Below are positions 1,714 through 64,000 of a stretch of 64,000 bases of DNA, piece by piece. The number at the start of each line of letters is the position of its first letter. Within the stretch, counting starts at the first letter, position 1. The stretch is from assembly GCF_900103425.1 (NCBI RefSeq), contig NZ_FMXA01000004.1, positions 1 to 64,000 of the forward strand. The letters run 5' to 3'. The position numbers were made by a program, and so were the translations under genes. This DNA is from Dialister histaminiformans (lineage in GTDB: Bacteria; Bacillota; Negativicutes; Veillonellales; Dialisteraceae). The notes below the pieces were generated by a model, which saw only the letters and a program-made list of their open reading frames with translations, searched no databases and was not told where the DNA came from.

Positions 1714-2283
1714 ATGTGTGACGTTCGAAGACTATTAAAAAATTGCCTGCTAATTCTATGTGTATGTATATTAATCCCGGCGTTTTGGTCTGGAGCGGCT
1801 GAGCCTGAGCTGGTACAGATTTCTGATTATACGGCCAATGAATTTTATCAGGGACTTAAAATACATAATGCAGCGAAAGAGACTAATTTACCTATGTCAG
1901 AAATGATAGATGAAATACAACCAAACAAGCCGTATGATATACATGCTATTATCAGTGGCAAAGGGGATGATGCAGTGGTTATCGGTCTTTTTACCAACAA
2001 ATCAGGTTATGTGTCCAAGATTACTATTCAGGGAAATGCACATAGTGGAACTGCATTGAGTACGGCTTATAAATGGGAATATGTTGTTTTAGGGGTATTA
2101 GGGATAGATGATGCAACGGATCAGGATTTTATGTCATTTCTGGAAGGACAGAATCCGCCATTTCAAACAGCAATCTGGAATGAACAATCCAACCGAAATA
2201 TTTTGGTCGAACATGGGCCATCACCTACCACGGTTAACTTGTTTTATATTCGTTTAACTGCATATGATCAGACGTTTGAATGA
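1714..2283 (+). CDS. secreted protein of unknown function, first of a pair
   Basis: 189 residues starting at an ATG behind an AAAGGAG box. The N-terminus (about residues 8-29) is a signal peptide ending SGAAEP; the rest is soluble. No recognised domain. The order of segments resembles the next gene: a hydrophobic strand VVIGLF followed by a lysine/glycine turn, a central alpha-rich part, and a C-terminal strand pair after NEQSNRNIL. The two may be distant paralogs. It is followed by the next gene after 13 bp, so they are probably co-transcribed. Confidence 0.75.
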   Translation: MCDVRRLLKNCLLILCVCILIPAFWSGAAEPELVQISDYTANEFYQGLKIHNAAKETNLPMSEMIDEIQPNKPYDIHAIISGKGDDAVVIGLFTNKSGYVSKITIQGNAHSGTALSTAYKWEYVVLGVLGIDDATDQDFMSFLEGQNPPFQTAIWNEQSNRNILVEHGPSPTTVNLFYIRLTAYDQTFE

Positions 2284-2296
2284 GAGGACGAGGAAC

Positions 2297-2875
2297 ATGT
2301 TTAAACGTATATTTTTTATGTTGAGCTTGCTGGTATTTGTAATCTGTGGTCAGACTGGTTATGCATATGGAACGAATGTGGCTTTAAATGACACAATTAC
2401 AGCAGATGGCTTTGAAAAATCATTTAATGCAGTGGATGCTGGGGATTTGAGTTACGTGAAACTTTCAAAGGTGGAACAAACAAAGGCTGAAGAACCAGGC
2501 GAAATATCATGGTTTTATTGCTATGGGAATGAGAATTTTCAGACCGCCAATGGAATGTATTCTCCATATATTATTTTGGGGATTGATAAGTTGAATAGAA
2601 TAAGACTGTTATCCGTATATGTTGACTCACAGGAAGATATGGAAGCATCATGGAAGTTATTAATGACTGAAATGCGAATAGCACTGGCTACTCTGGGAGA
2701 AGATAAGCAGGAGGATGGATCTAATGCGACATTCGCAATGTTGGATGCTTTAAAGAAGGGAATGGGAACCTATTGGAATTTTAAGAACAATAGACGGTTT
2801 ATTCTCACCAGAAATTTTATTTCTGCAGAAACTCACCAAGGAGTTATGTTGAGTGTTCAGGCTGAGGAACAGTAA
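2297..2875 (+). CDS. secreted protein of unknown function, second of a pair
   Basis: 192 residues from the ATG at 2297, which has a GACGAGGA box in front; an upstream in-frame start at 2264 would overlap the previous gene and give the signal peptide an unnatural charged extension. Signal peptide about residues 1-23 (ending GYAYG). The segment YIILGIDKLNRIRLL and the later NFKNNRRFILTRN line up loosely with VVIGLFTNKSGYVSK and NEQSNRNILVEH in the gene before. No known family and no enzyme motif was seen. No clear terminator follows in the 225 bp before the next gene. Confidence 0.75.
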   Translation: MFKRIFFMLSLLVFVICGQTGYAYGTNVALNDTITADGFEKSFNAVDAGDLSYVKLSKVEQTKAEEPGEISWFYCYGNENFQTANGMYSPYIILGIDKLNRIRLLSVYVDSQEDMEASWKLLMTEMRIALATLGEDKQEDGSNATFAMLDALKKGMGTYWNFKNNRRFILTRNFISAETHQGVMLSVQAEEQ

Positions 2876-3100
2876 GAAAAATAAATTAAATTGCACCTAA
2901 CGTAGTTAGTTATTGAGGAATATTTGCATTGGCTGGGTGAAGTAATTATATCTTGATGAAATGCTAAAATCTGAAATCTTTTGAATTTGCGTATGAATTT
3001 ATGGCAGGGTCTGTAAACCAAGTTTGCGGACTCTTTTTTGTTTAAAATCTTCGCTATATGGTATACAATCTAAAAATAAGCATATATGGGGGGCTATTGA

Positions 3101-49199: not shown

Positions 49200-51638
49200 A
49201 TGGACTGGGAAGAAGGAAAAATCATCTCTGCACCTCTGGAAGAGCAGATGAAAACGTCCTACATTGACTATGCCATGTCAGTTATTGTAGCCCGTGCACT
49301 TCCGGATGTGCGAGATGGTCTCAAGCCGGTACACAGACGAATCCTTTATGCGATGCAGGAAGCGGGTATGCTTCCGGGCAAACCATATAAGAAGTCGGCT
49401 CGTATTGTCGGCGATGTTCTTGGTAAGTATCATCCGCATGGTGATACCGCCGTATATGAATCCGCAGTACGTATGGCACAGGATTTTTCTACCCGCTATC
49501 TGCTGGTAGATGGGCATGGTAACTTTGGCTCCATTGACGGAGACTCTCCGGCCGCAATGCGTTATACCGAAATGCGTATGACCAAACTGGCTGTGGAAAT
49601 GCTCCGGGATCTGGACAAGGATACCGTTGATTTTATGCCAAACTATGATGGTTCCCTGCAGGAACCGGTAGTACTGCCATCCCGTATCCCGAATCTTCTT
49701 GTTAATGGTTCCTATGGGATTGCCGTCGGCATGGCAACCAATATTCCGCCGCACAATCTGGGGGAAGTAGTAGATGGCCTGTGCATGATGATTGATAATC
49801 CGGATGTCACCATTGATCAGCTGATGACTAAGATTAAGGGACCGGATTTCCCAACAGGGGGCCTGATTCAGGGCCGGGACGGGATTGTCAAAGCATACAC
49901 TAAGGGACGCGGGGGAATTGTGGTACGTGCCAAAACCCATATTGAAGAGATGTCCCATGGCAAACACCGTATTGTAGTAACAGAAATCCCATATCAGGTA
50001 AACAAGGCCAGAGTCATTGAAAGTATTGCCGATCTGTCCCGCCAGAAGATACTGGATGGAATTACCGGACTTCGCGATGAATCCGACCGTACCGGTATGC
50101 GTATTTCCATTGAACTGCGTTCTGACGTTAATCCGCAGATTATGCTGAACAACCTGTTTAAGCATACCCAGCTGCAGACCACATTTGGAGCCATTATGCT
50201 GGCTCTGGTGGATGGACATCCACGGGAACTGAACCTGAAGGAAATCCTGTATTACTACCTGAAACATCAGGAAGAAGTAGTAACCCGGAGAAGCCAGTTT
50301 GAATTGAACAAGGCTAAGGCCAAGGCTCATATCCTGGAAGGCCTCCTGATTGCGCTGGACAACATTGATGCGGTAATCAGAACCATCCGTGAATCCAAGA
50401 CCGATGCTATCGCCAAGGTAGCATTGATGGATAATTTCAAGCTTTCCGAAAAGCAGGCTATTGCCATTCTGGATATGCGTCTTCGTCGTCTTACCGGACT
50501 GGAACGGGAAAAGATTGAAGAAGAATATAAAGAAATTCAGGAACGTATTGCCTACCTGGAAGATCTGCTCTCCAGCCATGACAAGATTATGGGCGTAGTA
50601 AAAGAAGAACTGCTGGAAGAAAAGAAGAAATTCGGCGATGCCCGCCGCAGTCAGATCGTAAGGGCAGCGGATGATTTTGATGTAACTGACCTGGTACCGG
50701 ATGAACCGATGGTTATCATTATGACCAGACAGAATTACATCAAGCGTATGTCTGTTGATACCTGGCACGCACAGGCCAGAGGAGGCAAGGGCGTTATCGG
50801 TATCAAGACCAAAGAAGGGGACTACGTATGGAAGGTGCTTAACACCTCTACCCATCACAAGGTTCTGTTCTTTACCAATACAGGCAGGGTATACATGCGA
50901 AGCGCTATGGATATTCCGGAATCCAGCAACCGTAATTCCAAGGGCAGTGCGTTGATTAACTTCATTCCGTCACTGACACCGGGAGAAAAGGTTACGGAGC
51001 TGTATGATATTGATGACAGCGAAGTGGATATCGCTAAGTATCTGTTCATGGTCACCAAGTTTGGCTATGTAAAGAAGACCTCTGTGGATGAATACAGAAA
51101 TATCCGCCAGAATGGTCTGATTGCCATTAAACTGCGTGAAAATGACTCCCTGGTAACCGTGCTTCATGTATCGGGCGGCGAAAAGATATTCCTGGCGACC
51201 AAGAAGGGCATGGGTATCTGCTTCCCTGAAGAAGAGGTTCGCGCTATGGGACGGGCAACCGGTGGTGTACGCGGCATAGACCTTGGTCGTGATGATGAAG
51301 TGATTGGCGCAGTTATCGCGGAACCGGACCGTGACATTATCACCATTTCCTCGGATGGACAGGCTAAGAGAAACCCGGTATCTTCCTATCGCGCTCAGAG
51401 CCGTAATGGCAAGGGCACCCGTAATTTCAAACGGGGATATGAAGTAGTAGCTGTCATCACCGCTGTAGATGATGATGACCTGGTGGGGGTATCCGAAAAG
51501 GGCGTAACCATCAAGGTAAGGGTAGCTGATATTTCCACGAAGAAGTCCAGAGGCTCCCAGGGCGTAAGCATTCAGAACCTGGAAGAAGGCGACCGTGTAG
51601 CATCCATCGACGTCATCCCGAAGGATGACGAAGAATAA
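49200..51638 (+). CDS. gyrA: DNA gyrase subunit A
   Basis: 812 residues, full length. Catalytic Tyr in RYTEMRM (about residue 122); the quinolone region reads [14 protein letters not shown], with Thr and Glu at the E. coli Ser83 and Asp87 positions. C-terminal beta-pinwheel has the repeated motifs and a GyrA-box-like GGKGVIGIK (about residue 525). It works with GyrB to add negative supercoils; gyrB is not in the window. Expression may be attenuated by the leader hairpin. It ends with a long terminator. Confidence 0.98.
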
Positions 51639-51673
51639 GGAAACCGCGGAATCGCAAGAATTTCCGTGTAAAC

Positions 51674-51717
51674 AAAAAGGCATTAATCCATAAAATCTGT
51701 GGATTAATGCCTTTTTT
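51674..51717 (+). terminator. terminator after gyrA
   Basis: AAAAGGCATTAATCCA and TGGATTAATGCCTTTTTT form a 16-bp perfect stem with a short loop. Confidence 0.92.
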
Positions 51718-51801
51718 GCCATGTAAATGAAAAAAACAGCTAAAAAAATATAAAAATTTTTTATGCAGAATGCCCGGCATGCGGCTGGGAAAACGGAGAT
51801 C

Positions 51802-51851
51802 GAGTATGCTTGAGTATGCACCGGTATGCTACGGTATGCCAGAGTATGCTC
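51802..51851. repeat. five tandem 10-bp repeats (N-R-GTATGC-NN), helix-phased
   Basis: Five units follow each other exactly every 10 bp: GAGTATGCTT, GAGTATGCAC, CGGTATGCTA, CGGTATGCCA, GAGTATGCTC. The core GTATGC is constant. It lies between the gyrA terminator and the first antiporter promoter. The 10-bp period puts every unit on the same face of the helix, as in arrays of regulator or iteron sites. Function unknown. Confidence 0.8.
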
Positions 51852-51969
51852 AGGTAAAGACTAAAATGCATTTTTCTGTATTTGATTGAAAACAGGCAAA
51901 ATATTATAAATTTATCGAAAAAGTGCTCATAAATATAACTTTTATGCATTTGTACACCATTTTATGCAC

Positions 51970-51998
51970 TTGAAATTCTTTGTTCTTTCTAGTACTAT
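51970..51998 (+). promoter_or_regulatory. promoter for the first antiporter gene
   Basis: TTGAAA (51970-51975), 17 bp, TACTAT (51993-51998). Upstream are the decamer array (118 bp) and two TTTTATGCA-type repeats at about 51939 and 51960. The leader before the ATG is about 200 nt. Confidence 0.65.
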
Positions 51999-52017
51999 GG
52001 ATTGCGGCCGATGAGGC

Positions 52018-52092
52018 CAGGAGACAAATTTTCAGGGCATGGACCGGTAATGCCCCGTATAAAGCCATTATATATGTATAAAGCATCTCCTG
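52018..52092 (+). promoter_or_regulatory. three-way-junction leader candidate before antiporter 1
   Basis: Closing stem CAGGAGA (52018-52024) with TCTCCTG (52086-52092); inside are GGGCAT/ATGCCC (52035-52040, 52050-52055) and TTATA/TATAA (52068-52072, 52077-52081). Such a shape is usual for riboswitches. It does not match a riboswitch class that I can name. The remaining leader (52093-52206) shows no terminator. Confidence 0.35.
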
Positions 52093-52206
52093 ACTTCAGT
52101 TAACAATTTAATCTTAACGACGTTGAGCTGTTCCAGATTCCAGAGAAGAACTGGATATATATCCTGGTTTGGGTCTGAATCCCCATATGATTCCTGGGAG
52201 TATACT

Positions 52207-53517
52207 ATGAGCACAACTAAAAAAATGAGCGTTACGCAGTTAATTATCATTACTGCGGTAAACATGATGGGATCCGGTATCGTTATGCTGCCGGCAAAGC
52301 TGGCACAGGTAGGCGGATTATCCATAATTTCCTGGCTGGTTACGGCAGTAGGTTCCATGTTACTCGCGTACGCATTTGCAAAATGTGGAATGTATTCACA
52401 GAAGAGCGGCGGTATGAATGGATATGCTGAGTACACGTTTGGTAAAGCAGGGAACTTCCTCTGCGGATATTCTTACGGCATCTCTATAATCATTGCCAAT
52501 GTGGCAATTGCTACTTCGGCAGTGGGCTATGGCGCAACTTTCCTGGGCGCAGAGCTTACACCGGGGATGACCTGCCTGGCTACCATTGCCGTTCTCTGGA
52601 TAGCCACTCTTCCTAATTTCGGAGGTCCTGGAGTAACAGGCAGACTGAGCTCCATTACAGTTTGGGGAGTAATTATTCCGATTCTGGCTATGTCTACAGC
52701 GGGATGGTTCTATTTTTCCGGAGATATGTATGTAGCTAACTGGAATGTCCACAATCTGCCATTTGGTGAAGCAGCAACTAATGCGATTACCATGACACTC
52801 TGGTCTTTCCTGGGATTGGAATCCGCCTGCGCCAATGCAGATGCGGTAGATAATCCGGAAAAATCGGTTCCAACTGCGGTGCTGTGCGCTACCGCCCTCT
52901 GCGCGGTTATCTATATTGCCTCCACCAATGTACTGTTTGGCATGCTGCCGGCTGCGGAAATTGAACAGAGCTCCGCGCCATTCGGACTGGCCTTTGCCCA
53001 CATGTTTGGTCCTCTGGCAGGCCGGGTGGTTATGGGGATGATGACCATTGCCTGCATGGGATGCCTCATGGGGTGGCAGTTTACCCTTCCTAATATTTTC
53101 AAATCCATGGCCCGTGAAGGATTCATGCCATCCGCCTTCGCCTATACTAATCGGTTCGGTGCACCGGCAAAAGGCATGCTGATACTGACATTGATTCAGA
53201 CCGCTATGGCATTTATGGCCATCAGCCCGAATCTTAATCAGCAGTTTGAAATCCTTGTCAATCTGGCAACCATCGCTAATCTGATATCCTATATTCTCTG
53301 TATGTCCGCAGTAAAGAACATACTGATTACAGCCAACAAGCAGAAAGAAATGGCATTCTCACTCTTTGCCGCTGCGGTTGGCGGCGTATACAGCCTGTAT
53401 GCGGCGTATGCGTCTGGTTTTGAGGCCATGACTTATGGTTCACTGGTCGTATTTGCAGGAATGCTCTTCTATGGGTACATTTCTTCCCGATATGATCTGG
53501 CAACCAGTAAGGCCTGA
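52207..53517 (+). CDS. PotE-like amino acid/amine antiporter, copy 1
   Basis: 436 residues from ATG 52207 (GGGAG upstream). APC-superfamily exchanger with 12 expected helices. The helix-1 substrate motif is kept (NMMGSGIVMLP), as are counterparts of E. coli PotE Cys62 (AKCGMYS), Trp201/Glu207 (TLWSFLGLESA), Trp292 and Lys301 (GWQFTLPNIFK). The PotE Tyr308 position is Phe (REGFMP). It probably swaps an amino acid for its decarboxylation product across the membrane, but the exact pair cannot be assigned. It has its own promoter and leader, apart from the decarboxylase. Confidence 0.88.
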   Translation: MSTTKKMSVTQLIIITAVNMMGSGIVMLPAKLAQVGGLSIISWLVTAVGSMLLAYAFAKCGMYSQKSGGMNGYAEYTFGKAGNFLCGYSYGISIIIANVAIATSAVGYGATFLGAELTPGMTCLATIAVLWIATLPNFGGPGVTGRLSSITVWGVIIPILAMSTAGWFYFSGDMYVANWNVHNLPFGEAATNAITMTLWSFLGLESACANADAVDNPEKSVPTAVLCATALCAVIYIASTNVLFGMLPAAEIEQSSAPFGLAFAHMFGPLAGRVVMGMMTIACMGCLMGWQFTLPNIFKSMAREGFMPSAFAYTNRFGAPAKGMLILTLIQTAMAFMAISPNLNQQFEILVNLATIANLISYILCMSAVKNILITANKQKEMAFSLFAAAVGGVYSLYAAYASGFEAMTYGSLVVFAGMLFYGYISSRYDLATSKA

Positions 53518-53553
53518 CATATAGCCGGATATCTTTCTGGCATTCCCCAAAAT

Positions 53554-53594
53554 AAAATGGAGTATGATACAAACACCATACTCCATTTTATTTT
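53554..53594. terminator. bidirectional terminator after antiporter 1
   Basis: AAAATGGAGTATG pairs perfectly with CATACTCCATTTT; A and T tracts on both sides. Confidence 0.88.
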
Positions 53595-53607
53595 GCATAA
53601 TCCTTAC

Positions 53608-53647
53608 AATAAAACCCCGTATGAACCAATCATACGGGGTTTTATTG
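53608..53647. terminator. second back-to-back terminator
   Basis: TAAAACCCCGTATGA pairs with TCATACGGGGTTTTA over 15 bp. With the one before it, it separates antiporter 1 from the convergent gene at 53651. Confidence 0.88.
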
Positions 53648-53650
53648 TCT

Positions 53651-53959
53651 TTATTCTTCCCAGTCAAACCAGGTCAGTGCCTTTTCCAGATCAAAGAACG
53701 ATTTCCCGTCCCACAGGATATCTTCAGTCAGATGGTTCAGGCAGTCTTCCGGATCATCGGATTCATAACTGTAAACCATACCCAGAAAATCAGCAAAAGG
53801 CTCTTTTGTATAATGATACTTCTCAACACTCACCGTATACGTGCCCCGCATAGGATTATGGCGAAGTCTGGAGAAACGATATACGTACCCTTTGTACCGT
53901 ACACAGGCGCTGTCATCATACAGAGAATAAATGAAATCATCCACATTACCATTTTTCAT
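53651..53959 (-). CDS. small cytoplasmic protein of unknown function
   Basis: 102 residues from the ATG at 53959 (AAGGAGT upstream); no signal or membrane segment. It is rich in aromatic and acidic residues (DDFIYSLYDDSA, SFFDLEKALTWFDWEE) and has a YRFSRLRHNPMRGTYTV core. The gene is real by its ribosome site and terminator. No family recognised. It is convergent with antiporter 1. Confidence 0.7.
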   Translation of the reverse strand: MKNGNVDDFIYSLYDDSACVRYKGYVYRFSRLRHNPMRGTYTVSVEKYHYTKEPFADFLGMVYSYESDDPEDCLNHLTEDILWDGKSFFDLEKALTWFDWEE

Positions 53960-54722
53960 AGACGGATACTCCTTAAGGAATCATTTATTTCTCATTATAA
54001 GGAGGAGGGCGTGAAGAGTCAAAAGGGACCAGGTTAAGGTGGCGCAGGGTAAAAAACAATAATTTACAAATAATTAATAAAATTAATTATTTGTAAATTA
54101 AAATAAACTAAATATTAAAAAACGAACAATAAAATGTTTGGTTATTAATACAAAACAAAAACAAAACACAATAATATCAATATATTTATGTGGAATATAT
54201 TATAGCTTAAATATCCAAATAACTGCAAATTGAAGACAAATGAAGGCTTAAAGTACAGTAAAAAAGAACATCATCACATACATAGAAAAAGATAACTAGA
54301 TAGCTGTGAAGAAGGATATGTAGTTAACAATTTGAAAATTGGAAAAAGCGTGATATTGAGAAAGTACATGATATAAAAACTTGTTTTGATGATGAAATGA
54401 TTGAGAAAAAAGTGTAGCACAAAAAAATGTAAAAAACAGCATAATATAAGGATATTTGTAAAGAGACTGCTATTTGTAAATACAGAAAACCTCGGATAAA
54501 CTACAGATGTCATGTGGGAGGGCATACAAGTCGAAATGTGACAGTCAACCTTAAAATAAGATTTGAAACAAGCCATTTTAGTTATTTACTAAATACGAGG
54601 TTGACAATAAGACTTCTAATTATTGAACGTGTTAGTTGGAAGATAATGACGATTTGTAGAGCAAGATTCCTGATCAGCATGATTCGATTTTTTTAGTTTT
54701 TTGCAGATAAGGAGTAAACAAA
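53960..54722 (+). other. very AT-rich 760-bp gap before the speF antiporter
   Basis: No gene of convincing length. Base composition shifts to strongly A+T from about 54030 to 54500. A TTGACA at 54601-54606 has no good -10. A 16-codon frame (54646-54696, MTICRARFLISMIRFF) ends 26 bp before the antiporter ATG and is the only leader-peptide candidate; its ribosome site is weak. It may hold the speF promoter and control region. Confidence 0.4.
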
Positions 54723-56072
54723 ATGCAAAAGGTAAAAAAGATGGGGGTTTGGGAATTAACCCTTCTGGTACTCGTCAACATGATGGGGTCCGGTATTATT
54801 CTTCTGCCGACAAAGCTTGCTTCTGTTGGTACAATTTCAGTTCTTAGCTGGTTTATTACCGGTGGTGCAGTAGCATGTCTTGCATATGCATTTGCAAAAT
54901 GCGGTATGTTTAGCCGTCGTGGTGGTGGCATGGGTGGTTACGCTGAATACTCGTTTGGTAAGGCTGGTAACTTCATGACGAATTATACCTATTCCATTAC
55001 GGCTTTACTTGCTGACGTAGCTATTGCGCTGACAGCAGTTGCTTATGCATTACAGGTTCTTGGTGTTGAATCTAATGCAACAACCATTTGTGTTGGTACT
55101 TTGATTGCCATCTGGGCAGCTACAGCATTGAGTCTTGGTGGTCCAAAATCTGTTGGTAGAATTACTTCTTTCACAGTTCTTGGTGTAGTTGTTCCAGTAT
55201 TAGGTATTTCTCTAATTGGTTGGTTCTGGTTCAGTCCATCGTTGTGGATTAGTCAATGGAATCCGCATAATCTTCCATTCTTTGATGCAGTAAGCTCTTC
55301 TATCGCATTAACACTGTGGGCATTTGCAGGATTTGAATCTGCGGTATCTAACTCTGACGCTGTTGAAAATCCGGAAAAGAATGTTCCAATCGCAGTTATG
55401 GCAGCTACTCTTGGTGCAGCAGCAGTTTACGTTGTTTCCACTAATGTTATTCAGGGGATTGTTCCAAGTGCAGAACTTGTTAATTCAAATGCTCCATTTG
55501 GCGTAGCATTTGCACATATGTTCAGCCCGGCAGTAGGACAGGTCATTAATGCGTTCTTCGTACTGAGTTGTTTTGGTTCCCTTATGGCATGTCAGTTTAC
55601 AGCTGTACAGTGTCTTAAATCTGGTGCAGATGCTGGTTATTTCCCGGCTATTTTTGCAAAGGAAACTAAGCGTGGACTTCCGCTGATGGATATGATTATC
55701 GTTGCAATTCTTCAGTCTATCTTTGTAATTATGAGCGCAAGCCCAGAATTCTTCTCTCAGTTTGAAGCAGCAGTTGATTTGTCCGTAATGACAAACTTGA
55801 TTCCTTTCATCTTCTCCATGGGATCTATTCTGGTTATTCAGAAAGCAGCTACCGGAAAGACAGATTTTGTAACTAACATCTGTGCAGTAATCGGTTTGAT
55901 TTACAGCTTCTATGCTCTGTATGCATGTGGTACAGATGCTCTTGTATGGGGTTCTCTGGTTACATTCCTTGGTATTGCTTTGTATGGCATTGTATCCCCG
56001 AAGTACGATCTCGAAGCTGCTGTTGCTTATAACAAGAAGATTGATGCAGAAAAGGCAGCACAGAATCAGTAA
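54723..56072 (+). CDS. potE: putrescine/ornithine antiporter PotE-like, copy 2 (next to speF)
   Basis: 449 residues, 12 expected helices. GSG motif intact (NMMGSGIILLP), with matches to E. coli PotE Cys62 (AKCGMFS), Trp201 and Glu207 (TLWAFAGFESA), Lys301 and Tyr308 (LKSGADAGYFP). The Trp292 position is Cys: SLMACQFT against GWQFT in PotE. It is 83 bp ahead of the ornithine decarboxylase with no terminator between, so the pair is the expected exchange partner set: ornithine in, putrescine out. The order (transporter first) is the reverse of E. coli. A/T-rich upstream region. Confidence 0.9.
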   Translation: MQKVKKMGVWELTLLVLVNMMGSGIILLPTKLASVGTISVLSWFITGGAVACLAYAFAKCGMFSRRGGGMGGYAEYSFGKAGNFMTNYTYSITALLADVAIALTAVAYALQVLGVESNATTICVGTLIAIWAATALSLGGPKSVGRITSFTVLGVVVPVLGISLIGWFWFSPSLWISQWNPHNLPFFDAVSSSIALTLWAFAGFESAVSNSDAVENPEKNVPIAVMAATLGAAAVYVVSTNVIQGIVPSAELVNSNAPFGVAFAHMFSPAVGQVINAFFVLSCFGSLMACQFTAVQCLKSGADAGYFPAIFAKETKRGLPLMDMIIVAILQSIFVIMSASPEFFSQFEAAVDLSVMTNLIPFIFSMGSILVIQKAATGKTDFVTNICAVIGLIYSFYALYACGTDALVWGSLVTFLGIALYGIVSPKYDLEAAVAYNKKIDAEKAAQNQ

Positions 56073-56154
56073 TCTGGTGCTTTAGGTAATCCCTGGCTTA
56101 TTTTAAGCCGGATATAATATTCAGTTTTCAATATTTTTTGGGAGGAATTTATTA

Positions 56155-58377
56155 ATGAATTTCTTTAAAGTAGGTTATAGTCCATTAGCAGAACCGTATT
56201 TCAACACCATCGGTGTTCGTCAGAAAGTTTGTCTTGATGATGCAGATCTTACCAACATTGGTGCTGCAGTAATCACTGACCAGGAATTGGAATATGTTGA
56301 TAAGGTATACAACACTGGTTTTGAAACTCCTATTTTCCTCGTAAATACTAAGCATGAAGAACTTCCGGAAGAAGTTCTTGGTAAGATTAACCATGTTATT
56401 GATGGAGATCCAAGCACAATTTCTAAAGGACTCTATGACCGTGGGATTGAAGAAGCAGTAGTTGCATTTGATAATAAGGTAACTCCACCTTTCCTCAAGA
56501 CTATGATTAAGCATGTAGAAAATGGTACTTTTGAATATTCCTGCCCTGGTCATCATGGTGGTAATTTCTTCAGAAGAACACCAACTGGCGCTAAGTTTGT
56601 AGATTTCATGGGTGAAAACGTATTCCGTGGTGATTTGGGACATGGCGCAGCTCTGGATATGGGCGACCTTCTTTTGCACAATGGTGTGGCTAATGATGCA
56701 GAAGTTCTGGCCGCGAAGGTATATAACGCAGATAGAACATTCTTCGTATTGAATGGTACTTCCTGCTCCAACCACATTGTCTGCAGCGCATTACTTACAC
56801 CAGGCGACATCGTACTTTATGATCGCAACAATCACAAGTCCATTGACCATGGTGCTTGCATTCTGGCAGGGGCTACCCCTGTTTTCCTGGAAACGGTTCG
56901 TAATTCTGCCGGCTTAATTGGTGGTGTTCCGGCTAAATGCATCAACGAAGATTACATCCGTAATCTGGTAGCTGAAAAGGATCCAGTTAAGGCTAAGGCT
57001 AAGAGACCGATTCGTTTGGCTGTATTTGAAATGAGTACTTATGACGGCACAATCTATAATGCCCGCCAGGTTCTTGATAAGATTGGTCACCTCTGCGACT
57101 ATGTATTGTTTGACTGTGCATGGACTGGTTATGAACAGTTCATCGATATTATGAAGGACTCCAGCCCATTGCTGATGAAGCTTGGACCGGAAGATCCAGG
57201 TATCATTGTAACTCAGTCCGTTCATAAGCAGGGCGCAGGTTGGTCTTCTTCTTCCTGGATTCATAAGAAGGACAGTCATATTAAGGGACAGAAGCGTTAT
57301 TGCAATGATAGCGTATTCAACAATGCATATCTGCTTCATTACAATACATCCCCATTTATGCCGATGTGGGCAAGCATTGAAGTCAATGCAAGAATGCATG
57401 AAGGCAAACAGGGTAAGATGATGTGGAAGAAGGCTCTGTGTGATATTATTGAAGCTCGTAAGACTATCTTCAAGAGATGCCATTATCTGAAACCGTTTGT
57501 TCCGCCGGTAGTTCATGGAAAACCGTGGTGGGATGCTGATACAGAAACCATTGCAACTGATCTGGCTTACTGGAAGTTTAATCCGGAAGAAAACTGGCAT
57601 GGTTATAAGGGATATGACAAGGATCAGTATGTAGTTGATCCAATGAAGCTGCAGCTGATTACACCAGGTATTAACGTAGAAGATGACTCCTTTGAAGACT
57701 TTGGTATTAATGCGACTATCCTCTTCGCATTCCTGCGTGAAAACAACATTACCCCGGAAAAGACTTCTCTGTATAGCCTGCTCTTCCTGATTACTCCGGC
57801 AGAAACCAAGGTTAAGCTGGACAACCTTATTGCACAGCTCGTTCGCTTTGAAAAGCTGGTTGATGAAGATGCTCCACTGTATGAAGTGCTTCCAACCACT
57901 TACAAACAGTATTTTGCTCAGTACCGTGATTACTCTATCAGACAGCTGTGCCAGGAAATGCATGACTTCTACAAGAGCAATAATGTCAAGGAACTGCAGA
58001 AGGAACTGTTTATGAAGGATTATCTCCCAGAACAGGGCATCAGTGCTCAGCAGGCACATAATGCATTGGTTCGCAATGATGGTGAACTGGTTCCGCTGTC
58101 CCAGATTGAAGGCCGCATTGCTCTGGACGATGCGCTTCCATATCCGCCAGGAGTTGTTTGCGTAATGTCCGGTGAACGTTGGTCCAAGACAGCAACCAAG
58201 TATTTCCAGACTTTGGTAGATGGAATCAATGCGCTTCCAGGATTTGCTCCAGAAATTCAGGGCGTAGTTATGGGAACTGATAAGGATGGCAAAGCCATGG
58301 CTTCCGGTTACGTGCTGAAGAAGGAATTGGAAGATGAATATAAGGCTAAATATGTAACCGAACGAGTTAATGACTAA
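56155..58377 (+). CDS. speF: ornithine decarboxylase, inducible SpeF type
   Basis: 740 residues, close to the 732 of E. coli SpeF. PLP-dependent fold type I: N-terminal wing domain (1-110), the PLP domain with CPGHHGGNFFRR, VLNGTSCSNH, DRNNHKSIDHGA, the lysine that binds PLP in SVHKQGAG (about residue 358), KDSHIKGQ, and the C-terminal ALPYPPGVVCV loop. The motif run follows SpeF more closely than lysine (CadA) or arginine (AdiA) enzymes. It makes putrescine and uses up a proton, supporting acid tolerance. TGGGAGG precedes the ATG. A terminator follows at 58465. Confidence 0.93.
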   Translation: MNFFKVGYSPLAEPYFNTIGVRQKVCLDDADLTNIGAAVITDQELEYVDKVYNTGFETPIFLVNTKHEELPEEVLGKINHVIDGDPSTISKGLYDRGIEEAVVAFDNKVTPPFLKTMIKHVENGTFEYSCPGHHGGNFFRRTPTGAKFVDFMGENVFRGDLGHGAALDMGDLLLHNGVANDAEVLAAKVYNADRTFFVLNGTSCSNHIVCSALLTPGDIVLYDRNNHKSIDHGACILAGATPVFLETVRNSAGLIGGVPAKCINEDYIRNLVAEKDPVKAKAKRPIRLAVFEMSTYDGTIYNARQVLDKIGHLCDYVLFDCAWTGYEQFIDIMKDSSPLLMKLGPEDPGIIVTQSVHKQGAGWSSSSWIHKKDSHIKGQKRYCNDSVFNNAYLLHYNTSPFMPMWASIEVNARMHEGKQGKMMWKKALCDIIEARKTIFKRCHYLKPFVPPVVHGKPWWDADTETIATDLAYWKFNPEENWHGYKGYDKDQYVVDPMKLQLITPGINVEDDSFEDFGINATILFAFLRENNITPEKTSLYSLLFLITPAETKVKLDNLIAQLVRFEKLVDEDAPLYEVLPTTYKQYFAQYRDYSIRQLCQEMHDFYKSNNVKELQKELFMKDYLPEQGISAQQAHNALVRNDGELVPLSQIEGRIALDDALPYPPGVVCVMSGERWSKTATKYFQTLVDGINALPGFAPEIQGVVMGTDKDGKAMASGYVLKKELEDEYKAKYVTERVND

Positions 58378-58464
58378 TTATCATTGGATTGTAAAAGTTC
58401 CTATTTAGATATTCGTAATCATAAGGCGGAAAGCTTTTGAAAACGGAATATAGTGTGTGATTAG

Positions 58465-58508
58465 AAATGGAGTGAAGAACGCGTGAAACGATCTTCACTC
58501 CATTTTTT
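58465..58508 (+). terminator. terminator after speF, before antiporter 3
   Basis: AATGGAGTGAAGA and TCTTCACTCCATT pair over 13 bp with a 13-nt loop and TTTTTT. It lies 42 bp before the next ATG, so antiporter 3 would need a promoter of its own or read-through. Confidence 0.88.
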
Positions 58509-58549
58509 ATGTTCTTTTAGTTATTTCATGAAGGGGTGATGGTTATAAG

Positions 58550-59863
58550 ATGGATAACCACAAAAATAAGATGACTTTATTGCAGCTAACTGTTCTGACG
58601 GCTGTAAGTATGATGGGATCTGGTATTATTATGCTCCCAGCAAAACTGGGGCAACTGGGAAGTATATCCATATTATCCTGGCTGGTAACGGCTGTAGGGG
58701 CAATGTGTCTTGCTTATGCATTTGGGCAATGTGGTATGTACAGTCAGAAAAAAGGGGGAATGGGAGGTTATGCAGAATATGTTTTTGGTAAAAGCGGTAA
58801 TTTTATAGCCAATTTTACATATGGTATATCTGTGGTAATTGCGGACGCAGCGATGGCATTAGCTGCGGCTGGATATGGAGCTTCGCTTTTGGGGATAAAG
58901 CTGACATCCTTGGAGGCTGCAATCGGGACTGTTTTAATTTTATGGGCGACAACAATTCTTAATTTCAGAGGCCCGGCTGGTACCGGCAGGATTTCAAGTA
59001 TCACTATCTGGGGTGTTATATTGCCTTGTCTGTTTTTATCTACAGTTGGGTGGTTCTGGTTTTCTCCAGATATGTATTTTTCTAACTGGAATGTGCAGAA
59101 TCTTTCCCTGGGCGAAGCCGTTTCGCAGGCTATTACGATGACATTATGGGCCTTTCTTGGGTTAGAGACTGCCTGTGCGAATTCTGATGCGGTAGAAAAT
59201 CCGCATAAAACTGTTCCTAAAGCTATACTGGGAGGGGTACTTCTGGCGGCGGTATGCTATATAGTGACTACTAATGTGATGTTTGGAATGGTACCAGCTC
59301 AGGATCTGGCCAATAGTGAAGCTCCCTTTGGATATGTTTACTCTGTGTTGCTTGGGGGAACTGCAGGAAAAGTTGTAGTAGCCATGGTTTTGGTAAATGA
59401 TTTTGGTTCCCTTATTGGATGGCAGTTTACCGTAGGGAATGTATTTAAAGCGGCAGCGGATGCTAAAGAATTTCCACGTATCTTTGGCTGGATTAATTCC
59501 TATTCAGCACCTGTGGCAGGAATGATTATTATTACATCAATTCAGTCTATACTTGCTTTTATGACAGTAAGCCCATCATTAATCAAGCAGTATGAAATAT
59601 TGGTAGATTTGGCAGTGGTTACTAATGTCATACCGTATATTCTATCTATGTCTGCTTTGGATGTGTTGATGAAAATTGAAGCGAACATTTCCGGGAAGTC
59701 TTCGCGAGGATTGTCTGCTGTGGCGCTGATTGGTGCTATTTATAGTATTTATGCTTGCTATGCTGCAGGCGAACAGGCGATGACAGGGGGCGCCATTGTT
59801 ATTTTTGCTGGTTGGGTAATATATGGAAAAATTCAGAATCGGCAATATGTTTTGTTCAAATAA
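58550..59863 (+). CDS. PotE-like amino acid/amine antiporter, copy 3
   Basis: 437 residues, 12 expected helices. GSG motif kept (SMMGSGIIMLP), Cys (GQCGMYS), Trp/Glu (TLWAFLGLETA), Trp292 (IGWQFT) and Lys301 (VFKAAAD) counterparts present. The PotE Tyr308 position is Glu (DAKEFP), so ornithine recognition may differ. Ribosome site AAGGGG is 12 bases from the ATG. It is preceded by the speF terminator and followed by another terminator, so it is a single-gene unit or depends on read-through. Confidence 0.87.
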   Translation: MDNHKNKMTLLQLTVLTAVSMMGSGIIMLPAKLGQLGSISILSWLVTAVGAMCLAYAFGQCGMYSQKKGGMGGYAEYVFGKSGNFIANFTYGISVVIADAAMALAAAGYGASLLGIKLTSLEAAIGTVLILWATTILNFRGPAGTGRISSITIWGVILPCLFLSTVGWFWFSPDMYFSNWNVQNLSLGEAVSQAITMTLWAFLGLETACANSDAVENPHKTVPKAILGGVLLAAVCYIVTTNVMFGMVPAQDLANSEAPFGYVYSVLLGGTAGKVVVAMVLVNDFGSLIGWQFTVGNVFKAAADAKEFPRIFGWINSYSAPVAGMIIITSIQSILAFMTVSPSLIKQYEILVDLAVVTNVIPYILSMSALDVLMKIEANISGKSSRGLSAVALIGAIYSIYACYAAGEQAMTGGAIVIFAGWVIYGKIQNRQYVLFK

Positions 59864-59865
59864 AA

Positions 59866-59911
59866 GAAAAAGTACAGGAGGTCTTCTCAAGGGAAGGTCC
59901 TGTACTTTTTC
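59866..59911. terminator. bidirectional terminator between antiporter 3 and the TrpR-family gene
   Basis: AAAAAGTACAGGA pairs with TCCTGTACTTTTT, 13 bp perfect, with an inner TTC/GAA extension. Confidence 0.88.
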
Positions 59912-59926
59912 TTTAATCTTTAACGA

Positions 59927-60241
59927 TTAATCATTCTGGGTTTTGTAAATTATTCCGTGAAGTTTATTGAAGCGTTTAATTGCAAGTTTATATCCGCCAG
60001 TGCCGTATTGATAAGCTCTTTTGATTCGTGATATTGTGCCTGCACTAACGCCTGTTGATTCACGGATGGCGTCATAATTTTCGCCACGATCCAGTAAACG
60101 GGCAACTTCAAATCGCTGTCCCATTTCATGCAATTCATCGATAGTGCATAAATCCTGAAAAAAGCCATAAAATTCATCTTTTTCGCTTAAGGTTTTGATT
60201 GCATCAAATAAATGATCCAATTCAGCACATTTCATGTTCAT
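59927..60241 (-). CDS. TrpR/YerC-family DNA-binding regulator
   Basis: 104 residues from the ATG at 60241 (AGAGGGA 9 bases upstream). All-helical TrpR-like fold: the region FQDLCTIDELHEMGQRFEVARLL, then a helix-turn-helix NYDAIRESTGVSAGTISRIKRA, matching the YerC/YecD subgroup rather than enterobacterial TrpR. The ligand is unknown. The YerC group is often near purine or histidine genes. Here it is divergent from hisS and surrounded by antiporters, so it could control either. An inverted repeat lies in its promoter. Confidence 0.85.
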   Translation of the reverse strand: MNMKCAELDHLFDAIKTLSEKDEFYGFFQDLCTIDELHEMGQRFEVARLLDRGENYDAIRESTGVSAGTISRIKRAYQYGTGGYKLAIKRFNKLHGIIYKTQND

Positions 60242-60265
60242 CTTTTGAAGTCCCTCTCTTTTTTT

Positions 60266-60278
60266 ATAAACAGTTTAT
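60266..60278. promoter_or_regulatory. palindrome in the promoter of the TrpR-family gene
   Basis: ATAAAC-A-GTTTAT, a perfect 6-bp dyad, 25 bp before the regulator start and 340 bp before hisS. It may be an operator for autoregulation. The surrounding 60242-60511 is AT-rich and shows no gene or T-box. Confidence 0.35.
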
Positions 60279-60511
60279 GATAATTATTAGCTTATTAATT
60301 ATATAACAAAATGAATTGTTATAGAAGATACTTATTTTAAAGGGGCATACGATTAACGGAAGGACGAATTAAAAAATTAAAGTTATATCCATATAGAGAA
60401 TGAAATTAATCTAAAGTGATAAATAGTGAAGGTTGTTGGTTTTGCATTGACTGGGCTGAGAATAACAGTAAATATCCGGGAAATAGCTATTTAACTCTTT
60501 AAAGTATTAAC

Positions 60512-60541
60512 TTGACTACTAGGTAGAGAGTAATAGATAAT
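60512..60541 (+). promoter_or_regulatory. promoter for hisS
   Basis: TTGACT (60512-60517), 18 bp, GATAAT (60536-60541). The leader before the ATG is about 70 nt. Confidence 0.65.
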
Positions 60542-60547
60542 GTATAC

Positions 60548-60582
60548 AATTCAAATAAAAGAAATTTTCGTATATTTGAATT
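60548..60582 (+). promoter_or_regulatory. inverted repeat in the hisS leader
   Basis: AATTCAAATA (60548-60557) pairs with TATTTGAATT (60573-60582), 10 bp perfect with a 15-nt loop; ATTTTTG follows. It could be an operator at the transcription start or a weak attenuator. Confidence 0.4.
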
Positions 60583-60618
60583 ATTTTTGCTCAAGGATTA
60601 TTGAAAGGGAGGATCATT

Positions 60619-61878
60619 ATGCAAGCATTAAGAGGAACTCAGGATATTCTGCCGAGAGATATCTGGAAATGGAATTATGTAGAGAAAAAAATAAGAGAAT
60701 GGTGCAGGTTGTATCGTTTTGGCGAAATTCGTACCCCTATGTTTGAGGCAACCGAGTTGTTCCTCCGTGGGATTGGGGATACTACCGACGTTGTAACGAA
60801 AGAAATGTATACATTTAACGATCGTGGTGGTCGATCAATTACCCTTCGTCCAGAAAATACAGCGGCTGTTGTAAGATCCTTCCTTGAACATAAAGCGTAT
60901 GCCGATGATAATGTACATAAAGTGTTTTATATTGGATCCATGTTCAGATATGATCGTCCACAGGCAGGGCGATTCAGAGAATTTCACCAATTTGGTGTAG
61001 AAACATTAGGATCTTACTCTCCAGCTGCCGATGCTGAATGTATTGCGCTGGCGGTAGATTTCTTTCACTCGCTTGGACTCAAGGATTTAAAGCTTCTGAT
61101 TAATTCTATAGGCCATGTTGAATGTCGAAAAGCATATCGTGAGCGTTTGATAAAGTTCCTTGAACCAAAGAAAGATCAGTTGTGTGATGATTGTAAGGAA
61201 CGTTTATATAAGAATCCATTAAGAGTGCTCGATTGCAAGGAAGACGGATGCAAGGCCGCATCTGAAGGGGCTCCACAGATTACGGATTATCTTTGTGAGG
61301 ATTGCCACAATAAGTTTGAGGCCGTAAAGAAATATCTGACTGCACTGGGAATTCCTTACGAAATCGATTCTCGACTGGTGCGTGGTTTGGATTATTATAC
61401 GAATACAGCGTTTGAAATCCAGTATGCTCCATTGGGGGCGCAAAGCACAATTTGTGGTGGTGGTCGTTATGATGGACTCGTTGAAGAAATCGGTGGGCCG
61501 GCAACCCCAGGTATTGGGTTTGCCATCGGCTTGGAACGTCTAATTTTAGCACTGGAAAAACAGAACCTGTTACCGGCAGAACCTAAGGATGAGAATGTAT
61601 TTGTTGCGGTTATGGGAGAAGATGCTATGGCTGAAGGGCTTCGGATAGAAGACGGATTAAGAAGAAATGGAGTTCCGGCAGAAATTGATTTGCAGAACCG
61701 AAGCTTGAAGGGGCAGTTAAAGCAGGCTAACAAGCAGGGGGCTGCCTATGCAGTTATCATTGGAGAACAGGAGCTGAAACAGAAGCTGGGGGTTGTTCGT
61801 GATATGAATAACAATTCTCAGGAAAATGTAGCACTGGATGATATTGTAGAATATCTTAAGAAACAGATGCAAAGATAA
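60619..61878 (+). CDS. hisS: histidyl-tRNA synthetase
   Basis: 419 residues from ATG 60619 with GGGAGG 7 bases before. Class II synthetase: ALRGTQDILP, LRPENTAAVVRSF, GSMFRYDRPQAGRFREFHQFG (motif 2), the histidine-specific GLDYYTNTAFEI and GGGRYDGLVEEIG, and GFAIGLERLI (motif 3). An insert with paired Cys (CDDCKERLYK, DCKEDGCK) is common in bacterial HisRS. C-terminal anticodon-binding domain about 330-419. No aspS follows, the common Firmicutes neighbour. It is flanked by antiporters on both sides. A terminator follows. Confidence 0.97.
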   Translation: MQALRGTQDILPRDIWKWNYVEKKIREWCRLYRFGEIRTPMFEATELFLRGIGDTTDVVTKEMYTFNDRGGRSITLRPENTAAVVRSFLEHKAYADDNVHKVFYIGSMFRYDRPQAGRFREFHQFGVETLGSYSPAADAECIALAVDFFHSLGLKDLKLLINSIGHVECRKAYRERLIKFLEPKKDQLCDDCKERLYKNPLRVLDCKEDGCKAASEGAPQITDYLCEDCHNKFEAVKKYLTALGIPYEIDSRLVRGLDYYTNTAFEIQYAPLGAQSTICGGGRYDGLVEEIGGPATPGIGFAIGLERLILALEKQNLLPAEPKDENVFVAVMGEDAMAEGLRIEDGLRRNGVPAEIDLQNRSLKGQLKQANKQGAAYAVIIGEQELKQKLGVVRDMNNNSQENVALDDIVEYLKKQMQR

Positions 61879-61901
61879 GGACTTAGATAATCAAATTAAG
61901 A

Positions 61902-61944
61902 TAAAAAACCTTCTGATTGATATTATCAGCCGGAAGGTTTTTTA
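61902..61944 (+). terminator. terminator after hisS
   Basis: AAAAAACCTTC and GGAAGGTTTTTT pair; a TGAT/ATCAG extension adds stability. Confidence 0.85.
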
Positions 61945-62124
61945 TTTTCAGTAGTACTTTAGTTAAGTAAGAATACAAATAGTCATATAGTTAACGAGAC
62001 AGAAAAACTTATTTAATGACAAATAATTAATACTTTGTTATGATTTGTGTGATAATTTCTTGAAATTAGAGGCACGGAGTGGTGGCGCTCCTCTCGGGAC
62101 GGAAGAAAGATGAGGGAATTTTTT

Positions 62125-63423
62125 ATGCCACAGAATAACAAAGTAGGACTTATTCAGTTTACGATTTTAACTACGGTGAGCATGACGGATGGAATTATCA
62201 TGTTGCCAACTATGGTAGCTACCGTGGGAGCTATCTCTATTTATGCCTGGATTGAAACCATTATTTGTGTAATGATTCTTGCTTATGCATTTGCTAAATG
62301 TGGCGCCTATAGCAAGAAAAGTGGTGGACTTGGTGGATATGCGGAATATGCTTTCGGAAGATCAGGTAATTTTATAGCGAATTTTACATATGCTATTGCT
62401 CTTATGATAGCGAATGTAGGTATTGCTATTTCTGTTGTAGCGTATTCTAGTGCCTTTTTTGATGTTGAGCTAAGTCCGGTTGATGCAGCTTTTTTAGCAG
62501 GAGTGGTTATGATTATGACTACTGCAGCTAATTTTTGGGGAACCAGAATGACAGTTAAGCTGGGGTTTACGGCGATGATGTGCAAATTGATTCCGGCAGC
62601 AATTATGAGTATCTGCGGATTGTATTTTTTTGATCCTCAGATTTTTAATGCAGCATGGAATCCGCATCACTATACCGCGGTAAGGGCGATTGGTTCAGCT
62701 AATTCTTTTACGCTATGGGCTTTTTTAGGATTGGAGTCGGCATGTTCCAATATGGATCGAGTGGAAAATCCAAGAAAAAATGTTCCTGTTGCGGTAATAT
62801 CAGCTACAGCTATTATTGGGATTTTTTCAATTATATATACTACAGTTATTCAGGGAATAGTACCAAATTCAGTATTGTCGGTTTCTAATGCCCCGTTTGG
62901 TGATGCTTTTGCTTATATGTATGGGCCTGTAGCCGGTAGAATTGTCACAGCATTTATGATTTTTGGATGTGCGGGCGCATTAATTGCTTGGCAATTTACT
63001 TTAGGGGAATTGCTTCGTGAAGGTGCAGGTGAAGGATATTTTCCTGAAATTTTTGGGAAGGTGACCAAAGATGGCGTACCGGTAAAAGGCATGATTGTTA
63101 TGGTACTTATTCAGCTGATTATGATTTTTTTCACAATCAGCCCTACAATGGTTAAACAGTTTGATGTATTGATTCAGCTAGCTACGGTGGACAACTTGGT
63201 TCCTTACGTGTTGGCTATGGCCTCTCTGGATATTATGCAGAAAGAAGCTGGACATAATGAGCGCACGACCAGATTGGCTGCGGTTATAGGTGGGGCATAC
63301 AGTATGTATGCTACGTATCAGTGTGGCATGGATGCGGTTACGGCAGGTATGATGACGGTGCTTCTGGGGTATATGATTTATGGAGTATATGCTGGACAGA
63401 AACCCTATACAGGTCATTTATAA
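62125..63423 (+). CDS. PotE-like antiporter, copy 4, without the GSG motif
   Basis: 432 residues from ATG 62125 (GATGAGGG 6 bases upstream; ATG at 62110 lies within this site). Overall PotE-like, but helix 1 reads SMTDGIIMLP where the others have NMMGSGI: GSG is lost and one residue is missing. Cys (AKCGAYS), Trp/Glu (TLWAFLGLESA), Trp292 (IAWQFT) and Tyr308 (GYFP) positions are kept; Lys301 is Arg (LLREGAG). Sequence is AT-richer than its neighbours. An altered carboxylate-binding site suggests a different or uncoupled transport. Directly downstream of hisS with a terminator between. Confidence 0.87.
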   Translation: MPQNNKVGLIQFTILTTVSMTDGIIMLPTMVATVGAISIYAWIETIICVMILAYAFAKCGAYSKKSGGLGGYAEYAFGRSGNFIANFTYAIALMIANVGIAISVVAYSSAFFDVELSPVDAAFLAGVVMIMTTAANFWGTRMTVKLGFTAMMCKLIPAAIMSICGLYFFDPQIFNAAWNPHHYTAVRAIGSANSFTLWAFLGLESACSNMDRVENPRKNVPVAVISATAIIGIFSIIYTTVIQGIVPNSVLSVSNAPFGDAFAYMYGPVAGRIVTAFMIFGCAGALIAWQFTLGELLREGAGEGYFPEIFGKVTKDGVPVKGMIVMVLIQLIMIFFTISPTMVKQFDVLIQLATVDNLVPYVLAMASLDIMQKEAGHNERTTRLAAVIGGAYSMYATYQCGMDAVTAGMMTVLLGYMIYGVYAGQKPYTGHL

Positions 63424-63606
63424 TGGGGAACTTTCCTAAAAGATAGTGTCGTGAAGGTGATATGTTAATATGTTATTAAGGTGCAACATTTAGTAAGACC
63501 ATATAAAATAATTTGATATATTATGTAAATGCAAACAATTGGCATTTTCTGCTATTATGAGGGGCAGTATTTGACTGCACCATAATTAGCAGATAACGGG
63601 TTAAGA

Positions 63607-63638
63607 GAGGGAGACAGTTTATTTTGTCTCCCTTTTTT
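63607..63638 (+). terminator. intrinsic terminator 20 bp before antiporter 5
   Basis: AGGGAGACA and TGTCTCCCT pair over 9 bp with an 8-nt loop and six T's. It is 184 bp after the stop of copy 4 and 20 bp before the next start, so it may serve as a leader attenuator rather than only as the end of copy 4. Confidence 0.8.
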
Positions 63639-63658
63639 GTGTGAGAAGGTGAGATTCT

Positions 63659-64000
63659 ATGGGACATAGTAAAAATAAGGTCGGGGTTATTCAGTTTACT
63701 ATCCTGACTATTGTGAGCATGACGGATGGTATTATTATGATTCCGACCCTTGCTGCAGGAGTAGGAGCTATTTCGTTATATGCGTGGATTACTACGACAT
63801 TGGGAGCCGTGATTCTGGCGTATGCGTTTGCCAAGTGTGGGCGATTTAATAAAAAATCAGGAGGCCTTGGAGGATATGCAGAGTATGGTTTCGGTAAGGC
63901 GGGGAATTTTCTGGCCAATTATACTTATGCTATTTCACTGATGATAGCGAATGTAGGAATTGCTATTTCCGTCGTTTCCTATGCCAGCTCTTTTTTTAAT
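63659..64000 (+). CDS. PotE-like antiporter, copy 5, cut by the window end
   Basis: The first 114 codons of a gene that continues beyond the window (GAAGGTGAG before the ATG). It begins MGHSKNKVGVIQFTIL, then VSMTDGIIMIP in helix 1: the same loss of GSG as copy 4. AKCGRFNKKSGGLGGYAEY and the later NVGIAISVVSY also match copy 4 closely, so the two are recent duplicates. Everything after helix 3 is outside the window. Confidence 0.85.
   Translation, partial: MGHSKNKVGVIQFTILTIVSMTDGIIMIPTLAAGVGAISLYAWITTTLGAVILAYAFAKCGRFNKKSGGLGGYAEYGFGKAGNFLANYTYAISLMIANVGIAISVVSYASSFFN

Follow-up and report, generated by a model that had tools for sequence, protein, structure and literature searches.

A five-unit, exactly 10-bp-phased GTATGC repeat array between gyrA and potE in Dialister histaminiformans

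The 64,000-nucleotide stretch of DNA analyzed here (the window) was found to contain, in the intergenic region between gyrA and potE, five GTATGC sites in exact 10-bp phase, which occur as an array at one place in the genome and lie upstream of a promoter-like site and of potE itself. The array is real and rare. It is read here, tentatively, as a lineage-specific cluster of five putative DNA-binding sites modulating potE, which probably arose by tandem duplication. The balance between this reading and that of a neutral relic is almost even.

Anatomy and surroundings of the array

The array (Table 1) consists of the decamers GAGTATGCTT, GAGTATGCAC, CGGTATGCTA, CGGTATGCCA, and GAGTATGCTC, with GTATGC starting at positions 51804, 51814, 51824, 51834, and 51844. 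The spacing is invariant at exactly 10 bp, and the initial annotation, which had described five such units without spacing change, was correct to the base. TRF called the array at 51802–51849 with a period of 10, 4.8 copies and a score of 38. At least three phased hexamers (period 8–12) were obtained in none of 2000 dinucleotide shuffles of positions 51720–51999 and in none of 20 shuffles of the whole window. As the shuffles never reach even three phased copies, the array is not composition noise.

Table 1. Features in and around the repeat array (positions within the window).
Feature	Position	Strand	Description or basis
gyrA	49200–51638	+	Upstream neighbor
Inferred gyrA terminator	51674–51716	+	Perfect 17-bp inverted repeat, then T-run
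TTTTATGCA word	51759–51767	+	Upstream of array
Short potential hairpin	51773–51789	+	G+C-rich, beside array; fold
Five-unit array	51802–51851	+	GTATGC core every 10 bp; sequence read-out, TRF, shuffles
Potential RNA hairpin of array	51807–51856	+	21 pairs (6 G-U); loop UACG 51830–51833, C-G closing
Isolated ATGC	51866–51869	+	In array register, exactly 20 bp past the ATGC of the last unit
Two TTTTATGCA words	51940–51968	+	20 bp apart; end 1 bp before −35
Promoter-like site	51970–51998	+	TTGAAA-17-TACTAT before potE; consensus match only
potE	52207–53517	+	Putrescine-ornithine antiporter ("antiporter 1"); profile matches

A terminator-like hairpin stands between gyrA and the array, and no regulator gene was seen adjoining the latter. 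The gene downstream, which had been described as an antiporter, can be named potE, as its scores exceed the curated PotE cut-offs (617 bits for NF007938, cut-off 409; 595.5 bits for TIGR04299, cut-off 560). A distance of 120 bp separates the end of the array from the −35 of the promoter-like site. Two promoter-like sites were found in the scanned stretch, compared with 2.3 expected by chance. The potE leader (52004–52212) folds no better than its shuffles (z −0.03).

In the one other genome of the genus that was searched (G001), potE is missing from the place corresponding to the array locus: gyrA has as its direct downstream neighbor the small gene that lies past potE here, and another antiporter gene comes next. 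The block comprising array, promoter and potE was therefore either gained here or lost there. The small gene (53651–53959, minus strand), which adjoins gyrA in G001 and from which potE separates it here, encodes a 102-aa protein without Pfam match.

Several other features of the antiporter genes were observed. Five PotE-like antiporter genes and a SpeF-like ornithine decarboxylase gene lie within 12 kb of the window (52207–64000); a gene between them was judged hisS-like by eye. At L035:15083–16524 an antiporter reading frame is split into two ORFs and is likely a pseudogene. The leaders of two potE relatives from two genomes, namely L035:3050–3650 (potE copy at 1724–3049, minus strand) and the region upstream of G001:C1:1013773–1015065 (in L037), have in common the stretch CATCTGA..AGGGTC..TAGCGGAGCA (by eye). 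No Rfam match was obtained at these shared leaders, and the stretch is a candidate for an unknown leader RNA. Upstream of another potE copy lies an inverted repeat, GATTCAATTATGCATA..TATGCATAATTGAATC (L035:5340–5380).

Constancy of the core and the neighboring words

In the alignment register NNNNGTATGC, the constant core is preceded in the successive units by TCGA, TTGA, ACCG, TACG, and CAGA. All five units agree in six contiguous columns and differ in the other four, giving a mean pairwise identity of 73%. This degree of divergence bears on the earlier suggestion of a phase-variable tandem repeat, the copy number of which would tune potE. A tandem repeat placed ahead of a promoter-like site would suit such a switch. 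However, tracts prone to slippage tend to be longer, with better-matched units, than this array of five imperfect ones. Moreover, 120 bp lie between the array and the −35, so that a 10-bp change would leave promoter spacing unaltered, and phase variation is considered very improbable.

In drift simulations matched for 73% identity, of star-like arrays or of arrays built by stepwise duplication, six contiguous invariant columns were reached in 0 to about 0.5% of cases, a rate among accepted cases that depends on the mutation rate and comes from a post hoc test, the array having been chosen for its constant core. Read with that reservation, the result points to constraint on the core. ATGC is also frequent outside the array in 51720–51999, with six occurrences compared with a mean of 1.9 (19 of 5000 shuffles).

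The rival reading is that of a neutral relic, namely a functionless degenerate minisatellite left by local tandem duplication, the constant core of which would be due to luck or recent copying. The greatest likeness is indeed between neighboring units (core preceded by TCGA/TTGA and by ACCG/TACG), in keeping with such an origin, although the simulations indicate, post hoc, that uniform drift seldom keeps six contiguous columns invariant. Bacterial intergenic minisatellites such as the GTTAGCN array of G011 and the GTATGCNNNN array of G158 likewise have tandem units of 7–12 bp with a hexamer core and a variable remainder. The present array differs from degenerate minisatellites in combining a perfect core with strong divergence at the four spacer bases.

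Of the four TTTTATGCA words found in the 64 kb (both strands), three lie within the 280-bp stretch 51720–51999, and three were not reached in any of 5000 shuffles. TATGC is common to these words and to the array core, which may be a coincidence. Only one other exact pair was found in the sampled part of the genome, with a spacing of 21 bp (L189:16151–16180, contig C15 of the same genome), between a gene for a family-3 amino-acid-binding protein, on its upstream side, and a divergent DedA-like gene. Recurrence of the pair upstream of an amino-acid-binding protein gene is as expected if the word is an operator. In a scan upstream of the genes for this binding protein that covered 29 of 30 loci (the partial match L242 was left out, and three regions had fewer than 400 bases), the exact pair was confined to this genome. 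Six others (G003, G007, G009, G010, G011, and G017) had similar pairs with two to four mismatches, and 22 of the 29 loci had no pair.

ArgR operator pairs consist of two boxes about 21 bp apart with TGCAT-type half sites. By analogy, the pair at L189 is possibly an operator of this type. The likeness concerns the TTTTATGCA pair and not the array: two TGCATAAAA words stand 20–21 bp apart, both at the −35 of potE and upstream of the amino-acid-binding protein gene. However, the TTTTATGCA words are direct whereas ArgR boxes are palindromic, and the exact pair is absent from the relatives scanned.

Together, the constancy of the core and the TTTTATGCA words weakly favor a DNA-binding cluster for potE. 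In the mechanism proposed, one decamer would have been locally duplicated in tandem to give five sites 120–170 bp upstream of the putative potE promoter. A sequence-specific protein would then occupy the GTATGC sites in head-to-tail order along a single helical face, perhaps cooperatively, and this bound protein, along with the TTTTATGCA pair by the −35, would modulate potE transcription. The anatomy of the array is the one step of this scheme that is observed directly. Winged-helix regulators of the OmpR/PhoB type have tandem binding sites of 10–11 bp arranged head-to-tail. The array resembles such sites in its short core, near-helical period (direct repeats of exactly 10 bp), head-to-tail order and position upstream of a promoter-like site. 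It differs from them in having five units and a GTATGC core, and we know of no member of this type with such a core. The winged-helix profile PF00486 had three matches in this genome, none of them on contig C21, and three in G001, which is without the array.

Distribution of GTATGC arrays

When up to three mismatches were allowed, a three-unit search of the 1.70-Mb genome (40 contigs) returned the place of the array only, as four overlapping hits, the backwards-read control also giving four. In 397,787 bases of the genome, phased hexamers (period 7–25) occurred four or five in a row only at the array. Two-unit sites with at most one mismatch were at control level outside the array (seven, compared with eight for the backwards pattern). 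The initial annotation had proposed a search for further GTATGC decamer arrays, and none was found across the 1.70 Mb beyond the array itself. Absence of a second such array from the 398-kb sample is a point against a neutral relic.

A chromosome-organizing site, which had also been suggested, or a gyrase-related one is the least probable of the readings considered. Only proximity to gyrA speaks for it, but occurrence at one place in 1.70 Mb does not support a dispersed site of this kind. In addition, an inverted repeat and T-run separate the array from gyrA, and no array lies downstream of gyrA in G001. A mobile element, with ATGCA flanking a G+C-rich stretch, was rejected, as no terminal inverted repeats were seen by eye and no second copy was found.

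Positions 51720–52206 had no match in 11 other genomes of the family, and GTATGC was not found within 600 bp upstream of 23 potE relatives (23 of 29 other loci, L002–L030). Allowing one mismatch, three units were present in 2 of 61 genomes of the order. Three exact units were present in 4 of 380 genomes of the class (this genome, G012, G154, and G158), compared with none for the backwards control. The five-unit GTATGC array of G158 lies between divergent genes that have no link to amines; the three units of G154 are intergenic, and those of G012 form a perfect decamer repeat. Four exact units of period 10 were found in nine viral contigs for GTATGC, compared with two, three and four for the controls CGTATG, GATTGC, and GTCAGA, respectively. 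The 21-base stretch tried as an exact match was not found among these nine contigs, the listed sequences of which resemble other simple repeats, and phage and plasmid records held no match to the region. Judged by title, no literature on a GTATGC direct repeat was fitting.

Hexamer arrays of five units (period 7–24) numbered three in 1.20 Mb of other loci, with periods of 7, 11, and 12. In G011, a nine-copy GTTAGCN heptamer array lies directly after gyrA (L044:3949–4011) with more heptamer arrays nearby; as with the present hexamer, GUUAGC is self-complementary through G-U pairs. As they occur at unrelated loci, such arrays appear to be a low-rate background class in which GTATGC is at most mildly enriched. 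This background, which extends to viral contigs, together with the G158 array amid unrelated genes and the G011 array after gyrA, favors a neutral relic. However, the counts of GTATGC above the viral and class controls suggest that the hexamer is perhaps not entirely arbitrary. Given the absence of the region from the relatives searched, the control-level number of two-unit sites and the occurrence of arrays elsewhere, a neutral relic is nearly as likely as a binding-site cluster. The cooperative operator of the initial annotation is retained within the latter, leading reading for its constant core and exact phase, with weak statistics, while the control-level two-unit sites and the relatives without the array tell against it.

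Folding of the plus strand and implications

GUAUGC can pair with itself via two G-U pairs, and therefore RNA of the plus strand would fold into a 21-bp hairpin, unit 2 pairing with unit 5 and unit 3 with unit 4, spacers included. The predicted RNA fold of 51760–51870 (plus strand) had a z score of −4.36, with none of 200 shuffles as stable, and the hairpin was specific to this strand (−28.6 kcal/mol, compared with −9.1 for the minus strand). With DNA parameters the fold of the same stretch was ordinary (z +0.79). These values are consistent with an RNA element, in which a plus-strand transcript, either a small RNA or read-through from gyrA, would form a UACG-capped hairpin with a role in termination, protection or processing; the phased repeat would be a by-product of the self-pairing hexamer. 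The C(UACG)G of the hairpin belongs to the stable UNCG loop class.

When the hexamers were held fixed, only 48, 81, 125, and 131 of 2000 controls were equally stable under four null models (2.4–6.6%), which favors an RNA element to some extent. However, the hexamers alone give most of the stability (control means of −21.8 to −23.0 kcal/mol). The hairpin thus follows mainly, if perhaps not entirely, from repetition of the hexamer. An RNA element is further disfavored by the terminator-like hairpin that precedes the array, by the absence of a T-run directly after it, and by the lack of promoter-like sites in the scanned interval from the gyrA terminator to the array. At gathering score, Rfam returned tRNAs only in the window and no family at the array. 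Weaker hits in 51640–52210 were miRNA-like or implausible and fell mainly on the gyrA terminator, with none credible over the array. An RNA element is judged less likely than either a binding-site cluster or a neutral relic. Even less probable is a dual-code element, in which the hexamer would provide both a one-face array of five DNA sites and, when the plus strand is transcribed, a UNCG-capped hairpin, so that gyrA read-through could act via the sequence controlling potE.

Should the array be a neutral relic, it would serve as a caution that phased, near-palindromic hexamer repeats can resemble operators and RNA hairpins and need be neither. Should it be an operator, it would offer a first handle on the control of ornithine-putrescine exchange in this lineage, in a setting of five polyamine-type antiporter genes and an ornithine decarboxylase gene.
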